Positions 13,772 to 27,228 of a stretch of 42,329 bases of DNA are shown here, piece by piece (the stretch's first letter is position 1; the number at the start of each line of letters is the position of its first letter). The DNA comes from Candidatus Thalassarchaeaceae archaeon (lineage in GTDB: Archaea > Thermoplasmatota > Poseidoniia > Poseidoniales > Thalassarchaeaceae), in contig JALRLV010000013.1 in assembly GCA_023268715.1 (NCBI GenBank), forward strand, positions 1 to 42,329, written 5' to 3'. The translations under genes and the position numbers were made by a program. The notes below the pieces were generated by a model. It ran no database searches, was not told where the DNA came from, and was given only the letters and a program-made list of their open reading frames with translations.

Positions 13772-14047
13772 ATGTCAGACATAGAGTCTCGAGTTCAGCA
13801 AATTGCTCAAGTCCTCGGGCAGCTAGAGGACACGCAAGTTCCACGTAACATACGTAACTCTGCCAGAGATGCAGTTGAGAAGTGGCTTCTCAACAAAGAC
13901 AAGGAAATGGACATTCGTTTAGGTATGACTGCTAGTATTCTAGACGAAATTTTCAACGATGCAAATTTACCCATCCACTATGGTCCGCTTTGTCTGCAGA
14001 TTCAAACCGCCTTAGAGGCTCTTCTTAACGAAGTAAAACAATCTTAG
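13772..14047 (+). CDS. UPF0147 family protein
   Basis: From the ATG at 13772 the product is 91 residues, all helical. It carries the UPF0147 block VPRNIRNSARDAVEKWLLNKDKEMDIRLGMTASILDEI, a family found almost only in archaea and without an assigned function. A start at 13697 would add 25 residues unlike the family, while GGGGG lies eight bases before 13772, so the shorter form is chosen. It follows the asparaginase gene on the same strand. Its last four bases overlap those of the convergent lysE-like gene. Confidence 0.85.
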   Translation: MSDIESRVQQIAQVLGQLEDTQVPRNIRNSARDAVEKWLLNKDKEMDIRLGMTASILDEIFNDANLPIHYGPLCLQIQTALEALLNEVKQS

Positions 14048-14652
14048 AGCAATGGTACAGCAATGCCTAAGGCAATTGTGAACATAACAATTGCAATTCC
14101 TCCATCAATATATCTCCAAGCATTTGGATTTTCCATCAATGGAGATAGTAGTCTTGCTCCATATCCTAAACTAAAGAAAAAAATGAATGAAGCAAGGGCC
14201 GCTCCAATTCCAAAAATTTCACGTTCAGGACCATTGTATCGGGAGGAAGCGCTTCCTAACAAGACCAAGGTGTCTAGGTACACATGCGGGTTTAACCATG
14301 TAAATGCCAATGTTGTAATCACAACCGAAGAAAATCTATCTTCTTGAGTATCCAATAAATCGATACCCTGTGGGTCCATGGCCGATCTAATTCTTAGTAA
14401 TCCATAAACCACAAGGAAGGCTATCGCGGCTAATGAAATCCAAAAGGCTCCTTCTTCGTATTCCGCTAACCACGCTCCAACTCCAAGAACTCCAGCGGCA
14501 ATTAATGCAGCATCTGAAAGAGCGCAAATGCAACAGACAACAAAAATATGAGAGCGCATTAATCCTTGACGCAAAACAAATGCGTTCTGTGCACCTATAG
14601 CTACTATGAGGCCCAAACTAATCGCAAACCCTTCCATTGCGATGCTTAGCAC
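14044..14652 (-). CDS. LysE/ArgO-family amino acid exporter
   Basis: The 202-residue integral membrane protein has about six helices. The N-terminal signature GLIVAIGAQNAFVLRQGLMRSH is that of the LysE/YggA (ArgO) branch, with a second block LAFTWLNPHVYLDTLVLLGS also conserved. Members export basic amino acids such as lysine or arginine when peptide uptake overfills the pool. The gene lies convergent with UPF0147 (4 bp overlap) and upstream of it is the minus-strand rpl40e gene, whose 3' end lies 55 bp away. Substrate specificity is inferred from the family only. Confidence 0.88.
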   Translation of the reverse strand: MLSIAMEGFAISLGLIVAIGAQNAFVLRQGLMRSHIFVVCCICALSDAALIAAGVLGVGAWLAEYEEGAFWISLAAIAFLVVYGLLRIRSAMDPQGIDLLDTQEDRFSSVVITTLAFTWLNPHVYLDTLVLLGSASSRYNGPEREIFGIGAALASFIFFFSLGYGARLLSPLMENPNAWRYIDGGIAIVMFTIALGIAVPLL

Positions 14653-16706: not shown

Positions 16707-18326
16707 ATGCCTCAACCAAATAATGAGCCAATACTAGGGTTCGCCCCGGGAAGTCAAGAGAGAGCGGACCTACAAGCAGAGATGGATCGCCAGATGGGAG
16801 AGGTAATTGAAATCCCGTGCATAATCAATGGAGAGGAAATTTTCACAGGCACCACAACTACACAAGTGATACCTCACAACCACGGTCACGTTTTGGCAAA
16901 TGTTCACCTCGCCGGTAAGGCAGAAATGGAAGCCGCTTGTGATGCGGCGGTAAATGCTCAGCAAGCTTGGATTGACCTAGGGCTAGAGGGAAGATGCGCC
17001 ATATTCGAGCGCTGTGCGGACTTACTGGCTGGAGATTGGAGAATGCGCGTAAATGCTGCAACAATGCTAAATCAATCCAAGACAGCGTTCCAAGCCGAGA
17101 TAGACTCAGCTTGTGAATTGATAGATTTCTGGAGATTTAATTGCCATTATGCCCGAGGATTCCACGATGACTTCCAACCGCTGGTTTCTCCAGACGGTGT
17201 TCAGAACTCGACAGAGATTCGACCTTTGGAAGGATTTGTCCTTTCGATTACTCCATTCAACTTTACCAGTATTGCAGCGAATCTGCCAAGTGCTCCAGCA
17301 ATCGTTGGTTGTACGGGTCTTTGGAAGCCAAGCCGTAATTCCTACCACTCCAATTATGTCTTGATGCAATTGATGATGGAAGCAGGATTACCCCCTGGAG
17401 TAATCAATTTCCTTCCAGGTTCAGGTGCAGAAATTACTGAGGTCTCTTTGGCCAATCCAGACTTTGCCGGATTGCACTTCACAGGTTCAACTGCGGTATT
17501 CCAAGGGTTGTGGCAAGAAATTGGATTAGCACTTCCTAACCTTCGCTCCTATCCGCGAATTGTTGGGGAAACAGGTGGTAAAGACTTCGTCGTGGCTCAT
17601 CCTGACTGTGACCGTCAGGGTCTATTGGTTGCATTGTTGCGCGGTGCTTTCGAGTATCAAGGACAGAAGTGTTCTGCCGCTAGCCGCGCTTATGTGCCAA
17701 GGTCAGTCTGGGATGAAATACGAGATGATCTTGTATCTGAAATATCCAAAATCAAGATGGGCGATGCAAGGGATTTCACAAACTTCATGACTGCTGTTAT
17801 CGATCAGCGTGCCTTTGACAAAATTTCAGGTTATATTGATCGAGCAAAGTCAAGAGATACCTGCTCAGTAATCTGTGGTGGAGGTTACGATGACTCAACA
17901 GGTTGGTTCATCGAGCCGACAATAATTGAAACTACTAATCCAACTAGTGAGAGTATGGTTGAGGAAATATTTGGGCCAGTTCTAACCGTTTATGTCTATC
18001 CTGATTCAGACTTTGACGAAGTTCTGAGAATGTGTGATGAAGCATCTCCCTACGCCTTAACTGGAAGTATATTCTCAAGTTCGGAAGAGAATATCCAGAA
18101 GGCATACAATGCTCTAAGATTCACGGCCGGTAATTTCTACATTAACGATAAGCCAACTGGCGCAGTAGTTGCTCAGCAACCATTTGGTGGTGCACGTGCA
18201 AGTGGTACGAATGACAAGGCAGGTGGTCCACTCAATCTACTTCGATGGATTTCACCTCGTTCCGTAAAGCGTACATTGGACATACCGCAAGATTGGACAT
18301 ATCCATTCATGGGCGCTGATGAATAA
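16707..18326 (+). CDS. L-glutamate gamma-semialdehyde (P5C) dehydrogenase, ALDH4A1-like
   Basis: This 539-residue aldehyde dehydrogenase oxidises glutamate semialdehyde, in equilibrium with pyrroline-5-carboxylate, to glutamate with NAD+. That is the last step of proline and arginine breakdown. The catalytic residues are C322 in GQKCSAASR and E288 in GETGGKDF. The N-terminal NEPILGFAPGSQER, the EGFVLSITPFNFT block and the C-terminal INDKPTGAVVAQQPFGGA match the ALDH4A1/PutA-C class and resemble the mitochondrial enzyme closely. No proline dehydrogenase or ornithine aminotransferase is in the window. The next gene, an SSS transporter, looks like PutP by context, but its riboswitch says otherwise. 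Confidence 0.93.
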   Translation: MPQPNNEPILGFAPGSQERADLQAEMDRQMGEVIEIPCIINGEEIFTGTTTTQVIPHNHGHVLANVHLAGKAEMEAACDAAVNAQQAWIDLGLEGRCAIFERCADLLAGDWRMRVNAATMLNQSKTAFQAEIDSACELIDFWRFNCHYARGFHDDFQPLVSPDGVQNSTEIRPLEGFVLSITPFNFTSIAANLPSAPAIVGCTGLWKPSRNSYHSNYVLMQLMMEAGLPPGVINFLPGSGAEITEVSLANPDFAGLHFTGSTAVFQGLWQEIGLALPNLRSYPRIVGETGGKDFVVAHPDCDRQGLLVALLRGAFEYQGQKCSAASRAYVPRSVWDEIRDDLVSEISKIKMGDARDFTNFMTAVIDQRAFDKISGYIDRAKSRDTCSVICGGGYDDSTGWFIEPTIIETTNPTSESMVEEIFGPVLTVYVYPDSDFDEVLRMCDEASPYALTGSIFSSSEENIQKAYNALRFTAGNFYINDKPTGAVVAQQPFGGARASGTNDKAGGPLNLLRWISPRSVKRTLDIPQDWTYPFMGADE

Positions 18327-18360
18327 TCCCAAGTTTGATTATCTTCCTTCTTTAGGGAAA

Positions 18361-18442
18361 TTTAGGGGAGCTTAGTGCTGAGAGGTTGCTTTCGGGCGAC
18401 GACCCATTGACCTGATCTGGGTAATGCCAGCGGAGGGATAGA
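18361..18442 (+). promoter_or_regulatory. TPP riboswitch (THI element) controlling the SSS transporter
   Basis: The hallmark elements occur in order: GGGG (18365-18368, P2), GCTGAGA (18377-18383), CCC (18403-18405, P2 partner), TTGACCTGATCTGG (18407-18420) and AATGCCAGCGGAGGGA (18423-18438). P5 is CTGG/CCAG. P3 is very short (AGC/GCT), and an extra hairpin GTTGC/GCGAC (18385-18400) sits before the CCC. P1 is weak (TTTA/TAGA). GGAGGG (18432-18437) lies seven bases before the transporter ATG and should be its Shine-Dalgarno sequence, so TPP binding would hide it and reduce translation. Confidence 0.95.
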
Positions 18443-18444
18443 AA

Positions 18445-19905
18445 ATGGATACAAATATCGCATACGGATTGATGATTGCAACGCTAGGTGTATTCGGTTA
18501 TATCGGATATCAAGCATCGAATGCTAAGGAACTTGAAGCAGATGAATACCTCTCTGCTCGAGGTTCACAGGATTGGCTCAGAATTGGATTGAGTCTTTTC
18601 GCTTCAGGGATGGGGATTTGGATTCTTTTTGGCCCTTCTGAGGTCGGTTACTATGGTGGATTTTGGGATGTTGTCGGTTACGCCGTATCATCCGCCACTC
18701 CGTTCATACTCCTCGCCTATGTGGGGCCAAAAATTAGGGACAGGCTACCAACCGGAGTCACTCTTGCAGATTATGTTAGAATACGTCTAGGTAGGCCAAT
18801 GCAGATCTATGTTGGATTAATTTCGGTACTCTATATGTTCACATTTTTGTTTGCTGAATTTACGGCAATCGGAAAGGCTACTGAAACGTTGTCTGATGCT
18901 GAACCTCTCGTTCCAATGTTCCTGATAGGGGTCGTTACTGCAGCATACATCACTCAGGGAGGACTTCCTGCATCACTTGCGACTGATCGTATTCAGGCAT
19001 GGACCATTTTATTCCTGGTCATTGCTTTGTTGTTGACTCTCTTCGGAGGGGACATTAACGGCCTTATTTCTGATGCTAAGGCATACAATCCTGAGGATTC
19101 ATGGAGTATTGGCTCAATGTCATACATGGACTCTTTCAAGTCAGGGTTGGCCTTGGTTGTGGCAATCACTGCAGCCGAGATGTTCTCTCAAGGAAACTGG
19201 CAGAGAGCATGGGCATCAGAGTCTGATAAAGCTTTGACAAAGGGTGCTTGGCTAGCCGCAGCCCTAGTCTTGCCCCTGGTCTTAGTCATGGGTGTTCTTG
19301 GTACAGTAGTTGCAGGACAAGGTGCTGTGGATGACCCTTCAGCTGCATTCTTCTACCTGATAGATGATGCAGGGGTTTTGTTTGTAGCCGCATTCATAGT
19401 CCTTGCAATTGCTCTGGCTTGCTCCAGCGTCGATACTCTACAGAATGCTGTTGTGGCATCCATTTCTAGAGATTTAAGCGATAGCAAGATGGATCTTCAG
19501 AATGCAAGATACCTAACAGTCGGTATGATTCCAGTAGCAATTTATCTAGCGACCGGACCTACGCTTCCTTTCACCATCCCCCTCATTGGAATATCTGCTT
19601 TTGATGCCGGCGGTGTGTTCCAAATATTCCTCTTCGCCGACTTGTTGGCTGCTGCCACCGTAATGCCAGTGCTTCTAACACTCTGGAATCGGATATCTTC
19701 CCAAGGCGCACTCTTAGGTGCAGTCAGTGGACTTCTATCAGTGGTAGCATATGGTACAGTTACTGGGGATTTGAGGGAGGGCATAGAGTATATTTTCTCA
19801 CCAACAAATGAATTCGGCTTAGCAAATCTCGAAGTATTCCTTTCAGCAGTAATCGGCTCTACAATAATGACGATTATTTGCTCTTTACTGATACCTGATG
19901 AGTGA
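18445..19905 (+). CDS. sodium:solute symporter, probable thiamin or thiamin-precursor importer (ThiV-like)
   Basis: The 486-residue protein has about 13 membrane helices and the SSS-family core, including SARGSQDWLRIGLSLFASGMGIW and the TAAEMFSQGNWQRAWAS block. By sequence alone it could be a proline, pantothenate or urea-type symporter. Its TPP riboswitch points to thiamin or a precursor such as the pyrimidine HMP. A riboswitch-linked SSS transporter, ThiV, was assigned this way in SAR11 bacteria, and similar pairs are known in marine algae. Expression should drop when TPP is plentiful. A 47-residue zinc ribbon gene starts five bases after the stop. The substrate is inferred from regulation and has not been demonstrated. 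Confidence 0.85.
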   Translation: MDTNIAYGLMIATLGVFGYIGYQASNAKELEADEYLSARGSQDWLRIGLSLFASGMGIWILFGPSEVGYYGGFWDVVGYAVSSATPFILLAYVGPKIRDRLPTGVTLADYVRIRLGRPMQIYVGLISVLYMFTFLFAEFTAIGKATETLSDAEPLVPMFLIGVVTAAYITQGGLPASLATDRIQAWTILFLVIALLLTLFGGDINGLISDAKAYNPEDSWSIGSMSYMDSFKSGLALVVAITAAEMFSQGNWQRAWASESDKALTKGAWLAAALVLPLVLVMGVLGTVVAGQGAVDDPSAAFFYLIDDAGVLFVAAFIVLAIALACSSVDTLQNAVVASISRDLSDSKMDLQNARYLTVGMIPVAIYLATGPTLPFTIPLIGISAFDAGGVFQIFLFADLLAAATVMPVLLTLWNRISSQGALLGAVSGLLSVVAYGTVTGDLREGIEYIFSPTNEFGLANLEVFLSAVIGSTIMTIICSLLIPDE

Positions 19906-19910
19906 TAATT

Positions 19911-20054
19911 GTGAAAGAACCTACAAATCTACCAGCCGATAATACCTGCCAAATTCCGGTCAAGGTATTCATCCCAGGCCTCTGTCCTGAGTGTGGCGCA
20001 GATGTAGAAATTGATTGGAAGAACTGCAAAGAGTGTTATGCGATTTTGGGATGA
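19911..20054 (+). CDS. 47-residue zinc-ribbon microprotein
   Basis: A short frame from a GTG at 19911 encodes 47 residues. It contains C25-P-E-C28 and C39-K-E-C42, a classic rubredoxin-like zinc ribbon, in IPGLCPECGADVEI and WKNCKECYAILG. It starts five bases after the symporter stop and overlaps the PAP2 start (20038) by 17 bases, so coupled translation of three genes is likely. The function is unknown. Such ribbons usually act in protein or nucleic-acid contacts. The start has no clear Shine-Dalgarno, which lowers confidence a little. Confidence 0.65.
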   Translation: MKEPTNLPADNTCQIPVKVFIPGLCPECGADVEIDWKNCKECYAILG

Positions 20055-20925
20055 TGACTCTTTCTCTTTTCCAAAATCTTCTCCCGAGCCTTTCAAGGAC
20101 TACTCTTTGCCTTGTCGGTTCGTGCAATCAGGTCGTGCATTGACTCTTTGGGATAGAATACTTACACCATGGCCATATGTCTGGGTAATTCCTTGGAAAC
20201 ATAGAGAGGCTCTAGGCGGTCATCTTTTCCGAGTCATGGTTTTGATTTTCGGCGTAGTCGCGGTTGCAGTCCCATACTTTGGAACAAACATTTGGGCCGA
20301 GACATTCGCTACCACGGTTTGGGACCCAGAAATCGCCCTAGATCGTCAAATTCCAGTAATCGGGTGGATGATTGCACCATACATGGCCCTCTACTTATTC
20401 TATCCAGCAACATTGTTGTCTAATCCGATGGATGACCGACATAGGTTGGAATTGATTTCTGGAGTACAGATGTTATCGATAGTCACACTTCTCTGTTCGG
20501 TTATTTTCATCACACTTCCCGCAGAGATCGATATGAGAGATCAAATCGATTTTGATTTACTCGCTGGATGGGAAGTTGCGTTATTCGAATCAATGCATTT
20601 CTTGGATAATCCATGGAATGCTTGGCCAAGTTTACACATCGCACATTCCTATTTTCTAGCTCGAGCAATTACTAGGTGGGTACAAGCATCTTATTCCGAT
20701 ACAACACCTCGCAAACTCTTCCTGATTGTTCTATGGGTTGAGTTTGTATTGCTTTCCATCAGCATTCTAACAACCAAGCAGCATTACATCTGGGACTTGT
20801 TCACAGGCCTCTTAGTCGGCTTTACTGCCTGGTATCTAGTAGAGCCTTTCCTCAACAAAGTCCGAAACCTCCCTGATGACAAGGTTGGTTTGCACTTAGG
20901 TGACAATGATATTCTCAATCATTGA
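20038..20925 (+). CDS. PAP2-superfamily membrane phosphatase/phosphotransferase (Aur1-like)
   Basis: From the ATG at 20038 the protein has 295 residues and about six membrane helices. The PAP2 core is seen in NAWPSLHIAHS (motif 2) and TTKQHYIWDLFTG (motif 3, with the catalytic His and Asp). The first KxxxxxxRP motif is not evident, as in the PAP2_3 or inositolphosphotransferase-like group. It could remove or transfer phosphate on polyprenyl or phospholipids. A TTG at 20011 is a weaker start. It overlaps the upstream zinc ribbon by 17 bases and the convergent phosphate permease gene by 7 bases. Confidence 0.82.
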   Translation: MRFWDDDSFSFPKSSPEPFKDYSLPCRFVQSGRALTLWDRILTPWPYVWVIPWKHREALGGHLFRVMVLIFGVVAVAVPYFGTNIWAETFATTVWDPEIALDRQIPVIGWMIAPYMALYLFYPATLLSNPMDDRHRLELISGVQMLSIVTLLCSVIFITLPAEIDMRDQIDFDLLAGWEVALFESMHFLDNPWNAWPSLHIAHSYFLARAITRWVQASYSDTTPRKLFLIVLWVEFVLLSISILTTKQHYIWDLFTGLLVGFTAWYLVEPFLNKVRNLPDDKVGLHLGDNDILNH

Positions 20926-23039
20926 TACACGATAGGTAGGAATGCGTTAGCAGCTTCCTCACAGGCATTGGCGACATCATCCAGTCTTTGCAATACACGA
21001 TACATGTGAACTGCTGCTAGAGCGTCTTCTTCACCGGTTCTGAAGACAAATCCTGCGGCGTTACTCTCCACGAGATCTGCCTCATGTTCTGCAAGGTTAA
21101 CCTCTTGAACATACTTCAGCAGTTCTTCCCGACCCGCTTTAGTGTAGCCAGATAGTGTAAGATCTCGTAGATGAAGCACGGTGTCCTCGTAGACTGCAAC
21201 CGTCTTCTGAACTGCCTGTGCCATTTCCATTACCATTTGTCTTGCTTCCTCATTATCATAGAGCGGTCTGAAAGAGAGTTGCTCAGCAACGTTTTGGGCA
21301 TAATCTGCAATCCTATCTTGTCTACCAAGCATGAATAGGAACTCGTCGGAGTCAATGAGTAATTTCCATTCTCTGGCGCTCACCTTTTCTCTTAGAGCGT
21401 TCTTTATTTCGTCCGCAGCCAACTCAGCCTCTATTGTTGCCTGAATTTCTTCAGATGCATCTTCGCCTTTTGTCGCCTTATCTACAGCAGTCAGCATGTG
21501 GTCAACAGTCACTTCTACTGCTTCAGCATGCTTGTGGAACAACTCGAATACAGTGGGTTGTTTTGTTCCATCCCCTCCTACATCAGCTAATGCATCCTCG
21601 ATTACTATCTCCTCATCTCTAGTGACCCAGAGGACATATGCTACCGCGGCAAACGCGATCGGTAATACAACGATTAGATTGATTGCAGTACTTCCTATAG
21701 CGACGTATAGGGTAACTGCTCCAAATCCAGCAGCAGGAAGACTGGCTACCCATGAGGCGAAAATCTTGCCAAAAACTCTGAAATCTACATTTTTGGCTCC
21801 ACCAGCTAGGCCAACTCCAACCACTGCTCCGACTAATGTGTGGGTTGTGGATACTGGGACCGCAAGGAATGGCATTGAGAATACTAGAATTGTAGTAGCC
21901 GCACCAAATTCAGCGGCGAATCCCCTTGTTGGAGTAATATCAGTAATTTTGTGGCCAATAGTTTCCATAACTCTCCAACCCCATGTTACTACACCTATTG
22001 CTATACCAGCTGAACCAAGTAATATTAGCCAAAGGGGAACGTCTACCTTTCCAGCCAATTCTCCTGGTGTTGAGTTTAGTAATTCGTAGACGGTAGCCAT
22101 CGGCCCAATAGCATTAGATCGGTCATTTGCTCCATGAGCAAATGCTACGTATGCTGCAGTAATGACTTGTAACCAAACGAAGATTCTCTCAACGCCGTGG
22201 AATCCTTCTCCTTGGAATTCATAATTCCTGAGGACCCAGTACAGAATTATTGAACCAATAATTCCGATGACTAAAGCAACCATAATCGCGTTGAATGGAA
22301 TCCATGCATTTTCTGCCATTGGGTTCCAAACACCATTTTCTTTGACCGGTAACCAATCATACTTATCCGCGATTACTCCTTCTCTTTCGAGTCTAGCAAT
22401 TAGGCCCTTTAGAGCCTTGAATTGTAAGGCAATACCAAGTACGAAAAAGGTTGGAAGTGCCATAAGTGGGGCCATCCACCTACTTCTTTCAATAGGATTT
22501 GGAGCTTCTAAAATCGTAGCCCGCACAATGAAGAATGTCAAGAAAGCAAGCAAACCACCCATTAACGGACTTGCTACCCAAGACAAAACAACTTCAGTCA
22601 ACTTTTCCCAATTGATAAGAGAAGCATCATATTGTACTTCGAGGACTAATCCGATTCCTACAATTCCTCCAATTATTGAGTGTGTAGTAGATACAGGCAA
22701 TCCAAATCTAGTTGCGATTGTAATCCAAACCGCTGCCGCCATCATAGCAGCAATGAATCCGTACATCAGATCATTAGTGAAAGCCGCATTGAAGTAATCC
22801 GCCTCTGTATCAAAGTAGAGGATTCCTTTTCTTACCGTGTCAGTAACGGCATCTCCGGCAAAGAATGCACCCATGAATTCGAAGACTGCAGCAATAATCA
22901 CCGCTTGCTTCAGAGTTAATGCTCTGGAACCAACAGAAGTCCCCATCGCATTCGCTACATCATTCGCTCCAATGTTCCAGGCCATGTAGGCACAAACGGC
23001 AGTTGCAAGAATCAGGACGAGCCACATTATCGGTTCCAT
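20919..23039 (-). CDS. PiT-family phosphate permease fused to a DUF47/PhoU-like domain
   Basis: The 706-residue protein joins two parts that are normally separate genes. Residues 1 to about 480 form a PiT sodium- or proton-driven phosphate transporter. It has both signature repeats, GANDVAN at 24-30 and HGANDRSNA at about 302-310, and two VSTTHS/VSTTHT blocks. Residues about 498-706 form a full helical DUF47 (Pit accessory, PhoU-related) domain starting FELFHKHAEAVE and ending with the ERxxD-like RLDDVANACEEAANAF. The accessory part should control permease activity from the cytoplasm. The gene is divergent from an AbrB-PhoU regulator, and CTATAGA abuts its start codon. Confidence 0.92.
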   Translation of the reverse strand: MEPIMWLVLILATAVCAYMAWNIGANDVANAMGTSVGSRALTLKQAVIIAAVFEFMGAFFAGDAVTDTVRKGILYFDTEADYFNAAFTNDLMYGFIAAMMAAAVWITIATRFGLPVSTTHSIIGGIVGIGLVLEVQYDASLINWEKLTEVVLSWVASPLMGGLLAFLTFFIVRATILEAPNPIERSRWMAPLMALPTFFVLGIALQFKALKGLIARLEREGVIADKYDWLPVKENGVWNPMAENAWIPFNAIMVALVIGIIGSIILYWVLRNYEFQGEGFHGVERIFVWLQVITAAYVAFAHGANDRSNAIGPMATVYELLNSTPGELAGKVDVPLWLILLGSAGIAIGVVTWGWRVMETIGHKITDITPTRGFAAEFGAATTILVFSMPFLAVPVSTTHTLVGAVVGVGLAGGAKNVDFRVFGKIFASWVASLPAAGFGAVTLYVAIGSTAINLIVVLPIAFAAVAYVLWVTRDEEIVIEDALADVGGDGTKQPTVFELFHKHAEAVEVTVDHMLTAVDKATKGEDASEEIQATIEAELAADEIKNALREKVSAREWKLLIDSDEFLFMLGRQDRIADYAQNVAEQLSFRPLYDNEEARQMVMEMAQAVQKTVAVYEDTVLHLRDLTLSGYTKAGREELLKYVQEVNLAEHEADLVESNAAGFVFRTGEEDALAAVHMYRVLQRLDDVANACEEAANAFLPIVYQ

Positions 23040-23124
23040 CTATAGAGCCTCAATAGGTAGGGCATATAATCATAATATTATATAGAATATATAGTACGCT
23101 ATAGAATACGAGTACTGCGAGCCT
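23040..23124. promoter_or_regulatory. AT-rich divergent promoter between pit and the AbrB-PhoU gene, with repeated TATAGAATA
   Basis: This 85 bp intergenic stretch serves two divergent genes. It holds the direct repeat TATAGAATA at 23081-23089 and 23100-23108 (19 bp apart, about two helix turns). The palindrome ATAATATTAT precedes it, and TCTATAGA (23039-23046) borders the pit start codon. TATA-box-like sequence is abundant on both strands, so promoter and operator elements overlap. A DNA-binding role for the adjacent AbrB-PhoU protein is an obvious guess. Confidence 0.6.
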
Positions 23125-24213
23125 ATGAAAGGTATATATTTCGGGAGTAATGCGGCAAGATACGTGGAAAGGGTCGCTTCCAACAAGTCCGAAGTGAGAA
23201 AACTTCAACTGACAGGAGGTTCAACTTACATTGTCAGTTTACCAAAGAGGTGGGTGATGGAACACCAATTGTCTGCTAAAGATGAAGTCAGAATTGAATG
23301 GAGGCCTTCCGGTAGTTTGCGAGTAAATGCAGAAACTACTTCTGTTAGAAAAAGACGACAAGTGGAAATTGATTTACAAGAAATCAGTAGGGATTTCATT
23401 CTTGATCACCTAATTGGTGCTTATCTCTCTGGGGCTCAAAATATTCGAATCATTTCAAAATCGGGAATAGATAGAGAACACAGAAGGGAACTTCGAAGAT
23501 TCATCCAAACTACCCGTGGGATCGAAATCGCCAACGAATCTGATTACAGCGTAGAAATGATAACTCTGCTTAATCCTGCAGAGATGCCATTACACTCTAG
23601 TCTAAACAGAATGTATCTCTTAGTTTCTAGCCAGATAAGGGATGTGGTGGAAGTCCTTACTGGTGGAGACGTTACTATCCTAGAAGATAGCGAGGAGAGG
23701 GAAAAAGAGGTTGATGCATTGCGTTTGTTACTAGAAAGGCAGGTAGGCCAAATATTGGAATCAGCGACAATTGAAACTAGTTTTGGAACAACCAGGTGGG
23801 AAGCCGCCGAATTGTCGAATATTGTACGGACGCTTGAAAGGATAGGTGATCACTGTTACATCTTAAGCAGGCTGTGCGTTAACCAAGAAGTACCCAAGAA
23901 TCTTTCATCAGCAGAATTACCAGTTTCTGTAAGTCCCATTTGGCAGTCCTCAATTAAGCAACTTATTGCAAATTTACGGAAAAGGAAAGTTAAGGAAATC
24001 CACGATGCAAAATCGAATCTAGAATCTGCCATTATGAATCTGAGGGAATACGAAGATAGCTTGTGGGAAATGAAACTACAATCCACCGATGCCTTGTTTT
24101 TGGATAAATTATCAGAATCTCTTAGGAGAATATTGGCATACACAGTCGACATGGCGGAGATATTAATCAATATACACACACATAGAAATTCAATAGATGT
24201 AACAATTGAATAG
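23125..24213 (+). CDS. AbrB-PhoU phosphate regulator
   Basis: The 362-residue protein begins with a SpoVT/AbrB-type DNA-binding domain at about 23-70 (EVRKLQLTGGSTYIVSLPKRWVMEHQL...DEVRIEW). It continues with two PhoU-like helical bundles containing the metal-site-type motif NIVRTLERIGDHCYIL. Archaeal proteins of this design are thought to link phosphate status to transcription, replacing the bacterial PhoB/PhoR system. It lies between the two phosphate uptake systems, divergent from the PiT fusion and 144 bp before pstS, so it is the best candidate for a local regulator of both. A T-run follows its stop. The start at 23125 leaves a 22-residue N-terminal extension whose role is unclear. Confidence 0.9.
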   Translation: MKGIYFGSNAARYVERVASNKSEVRKLQLTGGSTYIVSLPKRWVMEHQLSAKDEVRIEWRPSGSLRVNAETTSVRKRRQVEIDLQEISRDFILDHLIGAYLSGAQNIRIISKSGIDREHRRELRRFIQTTRGIEIANESDYSVEMITLLNPAEMPLHSSLNRMYLLVSSQIRDVVEVLTGGDVTILEDSEEREKEVDALRLLLERQVGQILESATIETSFGTTRWEAAELSNIVRTLERIGDHCYILSRLCVNQEVPKNLSSAELPVSVSPIWQSSIKQLIANLRKRKVKEIHDAKSNLESAIMNLREYEDSLWEMKLQSTDALFLDKLSESLRRILAYTVDMAEILINIHTHRNSIDVTIE

Positions 24214-24250
24214 ACTATTTTGTTGTGTTATATCGGGGCGTAAATTAACA

Positions 24251-24257
24251 TTTTTTT
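24251..24257 (+). terminator. poly-T terminator after the AbrB-PhoU gene
   Basis: Seven T lie 37 bases after the stop of the AbrB-PhoU gene and before the pstS promoter region. This fits archaeal U-run termination and would separate the regulator from the pst operon. Confidence 0.4.
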
Positions 24258-24357
24258 CACCTAACTATAGAGATTAGATAGGTTCCTTCCATCTATGTTT
24301 ACTTTACAGATTCATTTCAACATACCATGCGATGTCGAAGCGATCGGAGAAATACGA
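24258..24357 (+). promoter_or_regulatory. pstS leader with CTATAGA motif and Shine-Dalgarno
   Basis: The leader contains CTATAGA at 24265-24271, the same heptamer found twice in the pit/AbrB-PhoU intergenic region (23040-23046 and 23099-23105). Nearer the gene, CGGAG (24345-24349) lies eight bases before the ATG at 24358 and decides that start over an in-frame ATG at 24295. The shared motif may be a phosphate-response operator or simply a TATA element. Confidence 0.45.
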
Positions 24358-25341
24358 ATGAATCGAACTCTATTGACGAATATGATGATTGTACTGTTGC
24401 TCAGTGCTTCACTGGCCGGGTGTACAGGTGATGATGAAAAAGAAAGCTTGATCCAAACCGGATCCTCGACTGTTTTGCCACTAGCGGTGGCCTGGGCAGA
24501 AGAGTATGAAGGGGCAGATGTATCTGTCTCAGGAGGAGGTTCCAGCCATGGAATCAATGCTTTGTTGAATGGGGAAGCCGACCTAGGGGATGCTTCCAGA
24601 CTGATGAAAGGCAAGGACTACACAAAAGTAAACTGCGACGAATCAGGGGTTAGATCAGATGGAACTGCATCTGAAGAGTGCATGGGTGTAATGCCAACCA
24701 AGTGGGTCGTTGCCTTTGATGTTCTTGCAGTAATTACCCATCCTTCAAACGACTTTGCGAGCAGTCTAACTTACGATCAGTTATACTCAATTTTCACAGA
24801 TGATAACCCAGCTGTATATTGGGATGATGTAGCTGGATTAGAGGGCGCTCCTCACGAAGAAATTCAAATCTACGCACCAGATGAAGCAAGTGGTACCTTT
24901 GACTACTTTTTCGAAGAGATTATCGAAGATTGGGGTGACGAAACTCAAGCCGCAGGAACCCGTCTAGAATCAGGCGATGGTGTATATCATCCATCAGCGG
25001 ACGACAATGTGATTATGACCGCAATACAATCCAACGAGTACGCAATTGGATTCCTAGGATTCGCATACGTTAGAGAGAATGCTGACAAGGTAAATACCGT
25101 ATCGATTGATGATGGTAATGGCGCTGTTGAACCTTCATTAGAGACGGTTGCAGATTACCCTATGGCTCGTCCTCTTCACATATACACCGATGCCAATGCG
25201 GCAAATTCTGATGCTGTCAACGGCTACTTGAGTTTTGCATTGTCTGATGAAGGACAAGCAGTCTGTGACGAAGTAGGATACGTGAAGGTAGAGTTGGTAG
25301 ATGCCAATCTGCTTTCACTCCAACGCGCAGCATTGGCGTGA
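24358..25341 (+). CDS. pstS: phosphate-binding lipoprotein PstS
   Basis: From the ATG at 24358 the protein has 327 residues, with a lipoprotein signal ending in the lipobox LAGC. The mature part starts with acidic GDDEKE and then GSSTVLPLAVAWAEEY. The phosphate-binding loops are the SGGGSSHGI and EASGTFDYFFEE segments, typical of PstS. It captures phosphate outside the cell for the PstCA-PstB importer encoded directly downstream, separated by only 18 bp. A Shine-Dalgarno sequence at 24345-24349 supports this start; the ATG at 24295 would put 21 extra residues before the signal peptide. Confidence 0.93.
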   Translation: MNRTLLTNMMIVLLLSASLAGCTGDDEKESLIQTGSSTVLPLAVAWAEEYEGADVSVSGGGSSHGINALLNGEADLGDASRLMKGKDYTKVNCDESGVRSDGTASEECMGVMPTKWVVAFDVLAVITHPSNDFASSLTYDQLYSIFTDDNPAVYWDDVAGLEGAPHEEIQIYAPDEASGTFDYFFEEIIEDWGDETQAAGTRLESGDGVYHPSADDNVIMTAIQSNEYAIGFLGFAYVRENADKVNTVSIDDGNGAVEPSLETVADYPMARPLHIYTDANAANSDAVNGYLSFALSDEGQAVCDEVGYVKVELVDANLLSLQRAALA

Positions 25342-25359
25342 ACTATGAAGTGGTAAATC

Positions 25360-27228
25360 ATGATTGAGTCTGGCACCTTCCTAGATGGCCGGGCTCCACG
25401 TAACCGATTTACCCATAGCGCATTGTTCGCAGCCGCCTCATTATCGGTGATTGCAAGTGCGTTAATCATATACACACTGGCATCAGGTACAATTCGCTTT
25501 TTTGAATACGAAGAAGCCACCTTTTTCGAATTCATTACTGGAACAGATTGGGTTCCTAACGGACGTAACCCCAGCTTTGGGATCTGGCCTTTACTTTCAG
25601 GCACAGCTCTCATTGCTGTGGGGTCACTAATGATTTCTATTCCTCTTGGAGTAGCGGCTGCTCTGCATCTAGGTGAATTTGCATCGCCAAGATCACGACG
25701 TTTTCTCAAGCCAATAGTCGAGGTTCTTTCAGGAATACCATCAGTGGTTCACGGTTTCTTCGCTCTTCTTGTAATTAGCCCCTTTATGCAAAGAACCATC
25801 GATGCAACATACTTCAATGCAGCTAGTGCAATAATCGTCGTAGCAGCAATGATTTTGCCCATTATAGTTTCAATATCAGATGATGCTATCAGAGCAGTTC
25901 CTAGAGAAATAAAGGAAGCAGCATTAGGCCTTGGAGCAACGCGTTGGGAAATGGCCACCAAAGTTGTTCTACCATCTGCTCGTTCGGGAATAGTTGCAGC
26001 GGTTTTACTCGCGCTTGCACGTGCAGTAGGCGAAACAATGGCTGTAACTATGGCTGCTGGCTCAGTTGCAGCACTACATTTTGATCCACGTCTGGAAGTA
26101 CAAACTCTGACTGCATATATTGCCCAAGTTGCAACTGGTGACATACCACCAGGCCCAGCAACCGATGCAGGATTCGCGGTAGGGTCTGCCCTCTTTGTCC
26201 TAACATATTCAGTGAATATATTGGCAGTTGGGGCAACAAGAAAAAGACTGGGGGCAAATAGAGGCAAAATGGCTTCCCTCCTTTTTCAAATCAAAGTGAA
26301 ATTATCAATGATTTTAGATAGAATTAGCGGAGATATCGAATATAATTTAACTCAATCAAATCCATTTATACCAACTAAATACGATTTATTTAGAAGAAGA
26401 AAGGAAAAAGTTTCACGATTCATTGTTGCAAGTAGCCTATTTGTAGGGTTAGTATTTTTGCTTATCTTACTCCAAACAATCCTAGAAACAGGATTGGCTG
26501 GTATTGATTTACAGTTTCTGACAAACTTCCCGTCCTACCGAGCTGATCAAGCAGGCATAGGCCCCACAATTTGGGGGTCACTTTGGCTAATAACACTGAC
26601 AATGTTATTCGCATTGCCAGCGGGTGTTGGTGCTGCAGTTTACTTAACTGAACTTGCACCTGAAGGTATCTTGAATCAATTTTTGAGAAGAACCCTACAG
26701 AACCTAGCAGCGGTTCCATCGATTATTTTTGGTTTGGTTGGGTTGTATGTTTTCAGCAGGATGTTTGGTTTTGGGCTTAGTTTACTCACAGGTTCTCTGA
26801 CTCTCGCAATGATGGTTTTACCGATGATTGTAGTAACTACAGAAGAGGCATTGCTAGCGGTTCCGAAATCGTTTCGAGATGCAGCATTGGGCGTTGGGGC
26901 AACTAGGTGGCAGGCAGTCAGACATCATGTTCTTCCAAATGCAGTTCCTGGAATAGCAACTGGAGCAATCCTCTCTGTTGCAAGAGCGTTAGGAGAAACA
27001 GCTCCTATTCTATTTGTTGCAAGCCTATTTTCAAAAACAGCGCCGACAGGAATAATGGATGGCTTCCTTGCGTTACCAATTCAGATATTTTTCTGGACTA
27101 GACATCCAAAGGAAGCGTTTCATGATTTAGCAGCAAGTACTATTCTTGTACTACTAATGCTATTGCTAATCTTGAATATCATCGCTATATTCATTCGTAA
27201 CAGAGCAGAGGATAGGAGGTCATGGTGA
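25360..27228 (+). CDS. pstCA: fused phosphate ABC permease PstC-PstA
   Basis: The 622-residue protein contains both permease subunits in one chain. Residues 1 to about 300 are PstC-like, with the coupling loop [25 protein letters not shown] and then RAVGETMAV. Residues about 345-622 are PstA-like, with the matching loop [25 protein letters not shown] and [11 protein letters not shown] charged cytoplasmic linker of about 60 residues (FRRRKEK and neighbours) joins them. Each half has about six helices. The gene lies between pstS and pstB in the usual order, with a 1-base overlap with pstB, and no frameshift is seen. This is therefore a true fusion rather than an assembly error, as far as the reading frame shows. 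Confidence 0.92.

Follow-up and report, generated by a model that had tools for sequence, protein, structure and literature searches.

A TPP riboswitch with a Shine-Dalgarno sequence inside its aptamer precedes a ThiV-like symporter gene at an exchangeable, putative thiamin-uptake slot of Poseidoniales

P1 is the helix that normally closes the TPP aptamer. The P4/P5 arm grips the ligand by its pyrophosphate (PMC4775224). In a recent review, TPP riboswitches are filed under strand exchange, which is given there as their general rule, and direct occlusion, in which the ribosome-binding site lies in or next to the ligand-binding structure, is described for SAM-II, SAM-III, preQ1-I, and preQ1-II (PMC10907184). 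On the transport side, the cargo suggested for ThiV/SSSP proteins is HMP or AmMP, or else thiamin (PMC4260697), and their function is still unsettled.

The window analysed here, by which the whole stretch of DNA is meant, consists of 42,329 nucleotides from a Candidatus Thalassarchaeaceae archaeon. Its order, the Poseidoniales, is described as uncultivated. The Poseidoniales (Marine Group II) are also said to outnumber all other planktonic archaea in ocean surface waters (PMC6461757), and a word search of two papers on their genomes and transcripts (PMC6336850, PMC9723583) found thiamin unmentioned.

A cmscan search of the whole window yielded a full-length match to the TPP riboswitch model RF00059 (model positions 1-105, E 2.8e-8), which is the sole match to this model in the host genome. 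The covariance score, which a preliminary description of the locus had proposed as a check, is 55.3 bits and so lies above the gathering score of 54.3 bits, by a marginal amount; the single-sequence fold is ordinary (z = 0.4). The THI-element core named in that description was recovered, with all its motifs located in 18377-18437 (Table 1). It is the clade comparison, and not the marginal single score, that places the aptamer far beyond chance. RF00059 matches were found in 71 of the 194 Poseidoniales genomes. A covariance model built from 43 clade sequences of the locus set detects the aptamer once per locus, at the start codon, in 60 of the 80 loci with a transporter relative; 59 of these score 84-99 bits and the remaining one is truncated by a contig end. 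Across the 43 sequences, the CUGAGA loop and the P4/P5 pyrophosphate arm are invariant or nearly so. In the clade alignment, the helices except P1 are 94-100% paired, and compensatory changes occur in P3a and P5. The Poseidoniales genomes are incomplete draft assemblies (86% for the host), so a single absence is weak evidence, whereas the pattern over 194 genomes is not. The homologous loci kept from GTDB are labelled euryarchaeal or Poseidoniales (best identity 95%) with one exception, in keeping with the archaeal origin first assigned to the element; the exception is an “Acidimicrobiaceae” bin, probably mislabelled. At the level of sequence, the TPP riboswitch at this locus is confirmed.

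Table 1. Positions of the features discussed, in window coordinates.
Feature	Position	Strand	Remarks
P5C (L-glutamate gamma-semialdehyde) dehydrogenase	16707..18326	+	TIGR01236, 754.9 bits; left slot edge in most relatives
TPP riboswitch aptamer	18355..18455	+	RF00059 match; conserved core 18365-18437; clade-wide
Pyrimidine-binding arm	18365..18405	+	P2 + 3-bp P3 + GCTGAGA + P3a
P2	18365-18367 with 18403-18405	+	
P3	18369-18371 with 18377-18379	+	3 bp
Motif GCTGAGA	18377-18383	+	
P3a	18385-18389 with 18396-18400	+	compensatory changes in clade
Motif ACCTGATCTGG	18410-18420	+	
Pyrophosphate-binding arm	18411..18436	+	P4 + P5
P4	18411-18413 with 18434-18436	+	CCU with AGG
P5	18417-18420 with 18427-18430	+	
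Motif AATGCCAGCG	18423-18432	+	
Motif GGAGGG	18432-18437	+	7 nt between its end and the ATG
Shine-Dalgarno GGAGG in aptamer	18432..18436	+	8 nt before ATG
SSS-family symporter, 486 aa, ThiV/SSSP-like, predicted thiamin importer	18445..19905	+	PF00474; ATG 18445-18447
PAP2-like membrane protein	20011..20925	+	right slot edge for both SSS and ThiBPQ

The anatomy of the aptamer agrees in most respects with what had been described. P3, given there as about three base pairs, is a 3-bp helix that is nearly invariant in the 43 Poseidoniales sequences. The stem reported as an extra insertion (18385-18400) proved to be P3a, an ordinary optional stem already contained in the RF00059 model, and its novelty is ruled out. 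The Shine-Dalgarno sequence is indeed built into the aptamer, with GGAGGG seven bases before the ATG as stated. Three of the five bases of the embedded GGAGG form the 3′ strand of P4, which reads CGGAGG in 43/43 clade copies against CGuAGG in the Rfam consensus, and the start codon mostly follows 7-8 nt after it. Since only 7 of the 31 window genes possess a five-base Shine-Dalgarno core of any kind, the fixed GGAGG is not the default of this genome. The ribosome-binding site thus lies within the aptamer in all 43 copies, which is the arrangement characteristic of direct occlusion.

P1 in the window comprises 4 pairs by the Rfam alignment. In Poseidoniales as a whole, neither of the two registers tried shows more P1 pairing than shuffled partners do, and a register-free test gives a marginal excess (2.77 vs 2.57, 8/200), whereas the excess is clear in other Thermoplasmatota plus Halomonas (3.57 vs 2.70, 0/200). 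The predicted occlusion, formerly placed in P4/P1, is therefore better assigned to P4, where the Shine-Dalgarno lies, than to P4 and P1 together, since P1 pairs are near chance in the clade. Most of the inspected aptamers of other Thermoplasmatota (L211-L239) also carry CGGAGG, several with the start codon about 7 nt further on. Given its presence in most of these copies and in Halomonas, the embedded Shine-Dalgarno extends more widely and its position is probably not specific to Poseidoniales, whereas the weak P1 and the short P3 look specific to them. An overlap of archaeal THI elements with the Shine-Dalgarno is said to have perhaps been noted around 2002 for Thermoplasma. The L211-L239 aptamers with embedded GGAGG precede genes for membrane proteins that resemble other transporters and are mostly some 400 aa long.

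The window transporter belongs to the SSS family, as originally proposed (PF00474, 63.9 bits, cut-off 22.8). It gave no match to the PutP models TIGR02121/NF011948 or to the PanF models; as a control, the PutP models give E. coli PutP 776 and 1143 bits, and E. coli PutP and PanF pass their own models by hundreds of bits. Its identity to PutP, PanF, and ActP is about 20% (about 19% to PutP). In 81/81 sequences of the window family, S and S occupy the positions of PutP S340/T341, a Ser/Thr pair that we take to be the Na2 site of sodium-coupled SSS transporters. In the same 81/81 sequences, the positions of D55 and Y248, which are crucial in PutP (PMC7918813), are G and M. A quick tree with Halomonas, haloarchaeal, and E. 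coli comparison proteins, in which branches are long and outgroups few, groups the window transporter with the Halomonas and haloarchaeal symporters, apart from E. coli PutP/PanF/ActP (100*). The related Halomonas gene has its own TPP riboswitch (65.1 bits) with GGAGG before the ATG. Related haloarchaeal symporter genes lie behind tenA genes in four of the five cases read in context and not in the fifth; those on haloarchaeal plasmids (L124-L127), which follow tenA, are annotated “sodium:proline symporter”, probably wrongly. A PDB sequence search gave no match. The grouping with thiamin-linked SSS proteins bears out the earlier label “ThiV-like”, and the predicted protein is of the ThiV/SSSP kind (PMC4260697).

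The place occupied by this gene is shared with another transporter. Riboswitch-positive genomes that lack the SSS gene have thiB-thiP-thiQ directly behind the aptamer, unless the contig stops immediately after it. ThiB passes TIGR01254 (179.7 vs 93.4); ThiP and ThiQ were assigned by operon and homology, their HMM matches being not specific. Both transporter types are flanked alike, by P5C dehydrogenase (or purA slightly farther upstream) on one side and the PAP2-like gene on the other. In the 194 genomes, 74 have SSS only, 99 ThiB only, 1 both, and 20 neither, counts that include a few partial matches at contig ends; the exclusion has a Fisher p of 1e-33 when shared ancestry is ignored. Ten genera (g2, g3, g4, g6, g7, g9, g10, g12, g15, and g20) contain both types in different species. 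Within a genus, ThiBPQ-type and SSS-type aptamers are about 90-97% identical in g2, g3, g7, and g10, and only 78-86% in g4 and g9. In one genome (G152; L195, L200), a riboswitch-SSS locus coexists with a riboswitch-ThiB locus, the two aptamers being 96% identical, which may represent a swap intermediate or a mixed assembly. Another (G157; L190, L191) has two short contigs, each with riboswitch-thiB behind P5C dehydrogenase and with different aptamers, pointing to duplication or strain mixture. The window also encodes, near the slot, a LysE-type amino acid exporter (14044-14652, minus strand; LysE 106.6 bits), as well as a phosphate cluster (20919-27228) that comprises a PHO4 transporter with a fused DUF47 (PhoU-like) domain, a PhoU-like protein, PstS, and a single 622-aa reading frame in which PstC and PstA are joined.

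Exchange also involves the regulator. Where the aptamer is missing, most SSS orthologs overlap P5C dehydrogenase or start shortly after it, and six lie 8-9 nt behind an HTH-ThiN gene (two of the six were tested against PF10120, with E 4e-24 and 5e-26). HTH-ThiN proteins reportedly include thiamin repressors in archaea, as is said of work by Hwang in 2017; the label “ThiR” is applied here by architecture. The aptamer is thus missing in some related genomes, several of which have a ThiR-like regulator before the transporter gene. Of the 194 genomes, 88 have ThiN-domain genes; these genomes belong almost entirely to the order's other family, and where inspected the genes often precede thiBPQ. Riboswitch and ThiN domain coexist in only 3 genomes of this sample; L048 and L050 are two additional loci at which the SSS gene is preceded by both. 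Each regulator, riboswitch or HTH-ThiN, occurs with each transporter, SSS or ThiBPQ, and riboswitch presence changes at least ten times on the transporter tree. In 15 sampled genomes, neither regulator was detected with the SSS gene. At L055, L057, L060, L077, L080, L098, and L102, where both are missing next to SSS, the start codon of SSS and the stop codon of P5C dehydrogenase overlap; at these seven loci thiamin control seems to have been lost. The locus is thus a predicted thiamin-uptake slot with exchanged transporters and regulators, an arrangement of which no description was found in the literature searched.

The metabolic context bears on the cargo. None of the 194 Poseidoniales genomes yielded ThiC (13 of 14 control genomes were positive), TenA gave no match over cut-off in the same 194, and neither did ThiE in 60 or ThiL in 40 genomes, the partial ThiL matches reaching about 38-50 bits against a cut-off of 184. 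Thi4 gave only short partial matches, mostly in reading frames of 350-620 aa, and all of the 60 listed span about 40-90 positions at the N-terminus of the profile. They are read as FAD-binding domains, and Thi4 was rejected as a sign of partial biosynthesis. Thiamin pyrophosphokinase is present in 38 of 40 genomes, and that of the host passes the equivalog cut-off of TIGR01378 and both Pfam domains. Because the kinase is present and synthesis genes were not found, Poseidoniales would need thiamin itself; replacement of the SSS gene by ThiBPQ, a known thiamin transporter, argues for the same cargo, which is most likely thiamin itself. Of the two cargoes first suggested, thiamin has accordingly gained and HMP has become less likely, no HMP-using enzyme having been found among those searched.

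These elements can be joined in a mechanism. Plentiful TPP would bind between the P2/P3 and P4/P5 arms and stabilise P4, which would hide the Shine-Dalgarno of the transporter gene, so that the 30S subunit would be excluded and uptake would stop. With scarce TPP, P4 would open, the ribosome would take the GGAGG, and the symporter would be made; it would import intact thiamin, probably with sodium, and thiamin pyrophosphokinase would convert this into TPP. Ligand binding should hide the Shine-Dalgarno directly, because part of it is a P4 strand and the ATG lies right behind. The sequences themselves show the aptamer, the position of the Shine-Dalgarno, its linkage to the gene, the missing biosynthesis genes, and the transporter exchange; from them we infer TPP binding, occlusion in the cell, thiamin as cargo, and sodium coupling. 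To this account as a whole, namely, a translational direct-occlusion TPP riboswitch controlling thiamin uptake at an exchangeable slot, a probability of roughly 0.8 is given.

Two other views of the RNA have to be considered. The switch could work by strand exchange or transcription termination, as in most TPP riboswitches, with the embedded Shine-Dalgarno being secondary. Strand exchange is the rule for the class (PMC10907184), and a P1 of at least 5 bp is seen in a few sequences; however, the 8 nt between Shine-Dalgarno and ATG leave no room for an expression platform, the Shine-Dalgarno is fixed at the P4 strand in 43/43 copies, and P1 near chance level in Poseidoniales favours direct occlusion. 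This alternative is therefore considered improbable. Even less credible, to the point of being very unlikely, is that the aptamer is a decaying relic without remaining TPP binding. Such a state would accord with the marginal Rfam score, the 3-bp P3, the unconserved P1, and the repeated changes of riboswitch presence on the transporter tree, but not with core positions that vary little or not at all across 43 diverse sequences, with P3a and P5 varying by compensation, or with the finding that, contig ends aside, only SSS or thiBPQ genes stand behind Poseidoniales aptamers.

As to the protein, a PutP-like proline symporter working with the adjacent P5C dehydrogenase, the riboswitch being incidental, would explain the upstream position of this dehydrogenase in most relatives and its overlap with the transporter gene in several aptamer-free ones, and it would suit the annotation of the haloarchaeal homologs. 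Yet ThiBPQ occupies the same place beside the same P5C dehydrogenase, and therefore the neighbour says little on cargo; at six loci an HTH-ThiN gene is the neighbour instead. With the PutP models unmatched, the low identity to PutP, and the exchanged D55 and Y248, the idea has hardly any likelihood left, and it is rejected on the strength of family models, residues, and context; placement among proline symporters, the outcome against which the preliminary description had warned, is contradicted by the models, the residues, and the tree alike. The proposal made for SAR11 ThiV, import of HMP or a related pyrimidine as a precursor of thiamin, deserves more weight, although it too is unlikely. It draws on the cargoes put forward for ThiV/SSSP (PMC4260697) and on the haloarchaeal relatives found beside TenA, an enzyme of pyrimidine salvage; a new TMP synthase may exist. 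Against it, no ThiC, TenA, or real Thi4 was found, ThiE was absent over cut-off in 60 genomes, no HTH-free ThiN partner was seen with the transporter family, the kinase present acts on thiamin, and the SSS gene is replaced one for one by a thiamin transporter.

The initial interpretation is thus supported and extended. A broader combined reading, judged somewhat better than even, is that Poseidoniales have a TPP riboswitch nearly without a P1 switching helix, which senses TPP by its own Shine-Dalgarno through direct occlusion, at one slot with many SSS/ThiBPQ and riboswitch/HTH-ThiN exchanges, and that the SSS branch carries intact thiamin. It can be argued that the riboswitch variant is new and that the transporter, of a kind already known, now has thiamin as an arguable cargo. 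If the combined reading is true, a thiamin function would be assigned to the ThiV-like proteins of a major marine archaeal group, and replacement by a known thiamin transporter makes the cargo of ThiV/SSSP testable. Dependence of Poseidoniales on dissolved thiamin is predicted. Transporters exchanged behind a resident sensor would mean that regulation outlives the controlled gene, and a class described as strand-exchanging would include a member with ligand arm and ribosome site in one helix.

Compared with RF00059, the Poseidoniales element shares the aptamer core, the T-loop, P2, P4, P5, the optional P3a, and the location before thiamin genes, and differs by the Shine-Dalgarno in P4, the near-chance P1, the 3-bp P3, and the lack of a separate expression platform. 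The TPP riboswitches of other Thermoplasmatota (L211-L239) resemble it in having CGGAGG in most inspected copies, but their P3 is longer, their P1 is detectable, and other membrane proteins lie downstream. With SAM-II, SAM-III, preQ1-I, and preQ1-II it has in common a ribosome-binding site that belongs to, or adjoins, the structure binding the ligand, whereas aptamer and ligand are different. ThiV/SSSP of SAR11, Methylobacillus, algae, and haloarchaea are likewise SSS proteins linked to TPP riboswitches or thiamin genes; the nearest relatives of this type among the sequences compared are from Halomonas and haloarchaea, and the Poseidoniales hosts differ in having no detected thiamin synthesis and thiamin rather than HMP as likely cargo. 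The HTH-ThiN (ThiR-like) regulator is a known thiamin control module found in the matching gene order of relatives, where it takes the place of the riboswitch. ThiBPQ, finally, is a known thiamin uptake module in the same slot of relatives, structurally unrelated to the SSS transporter that it replaces.
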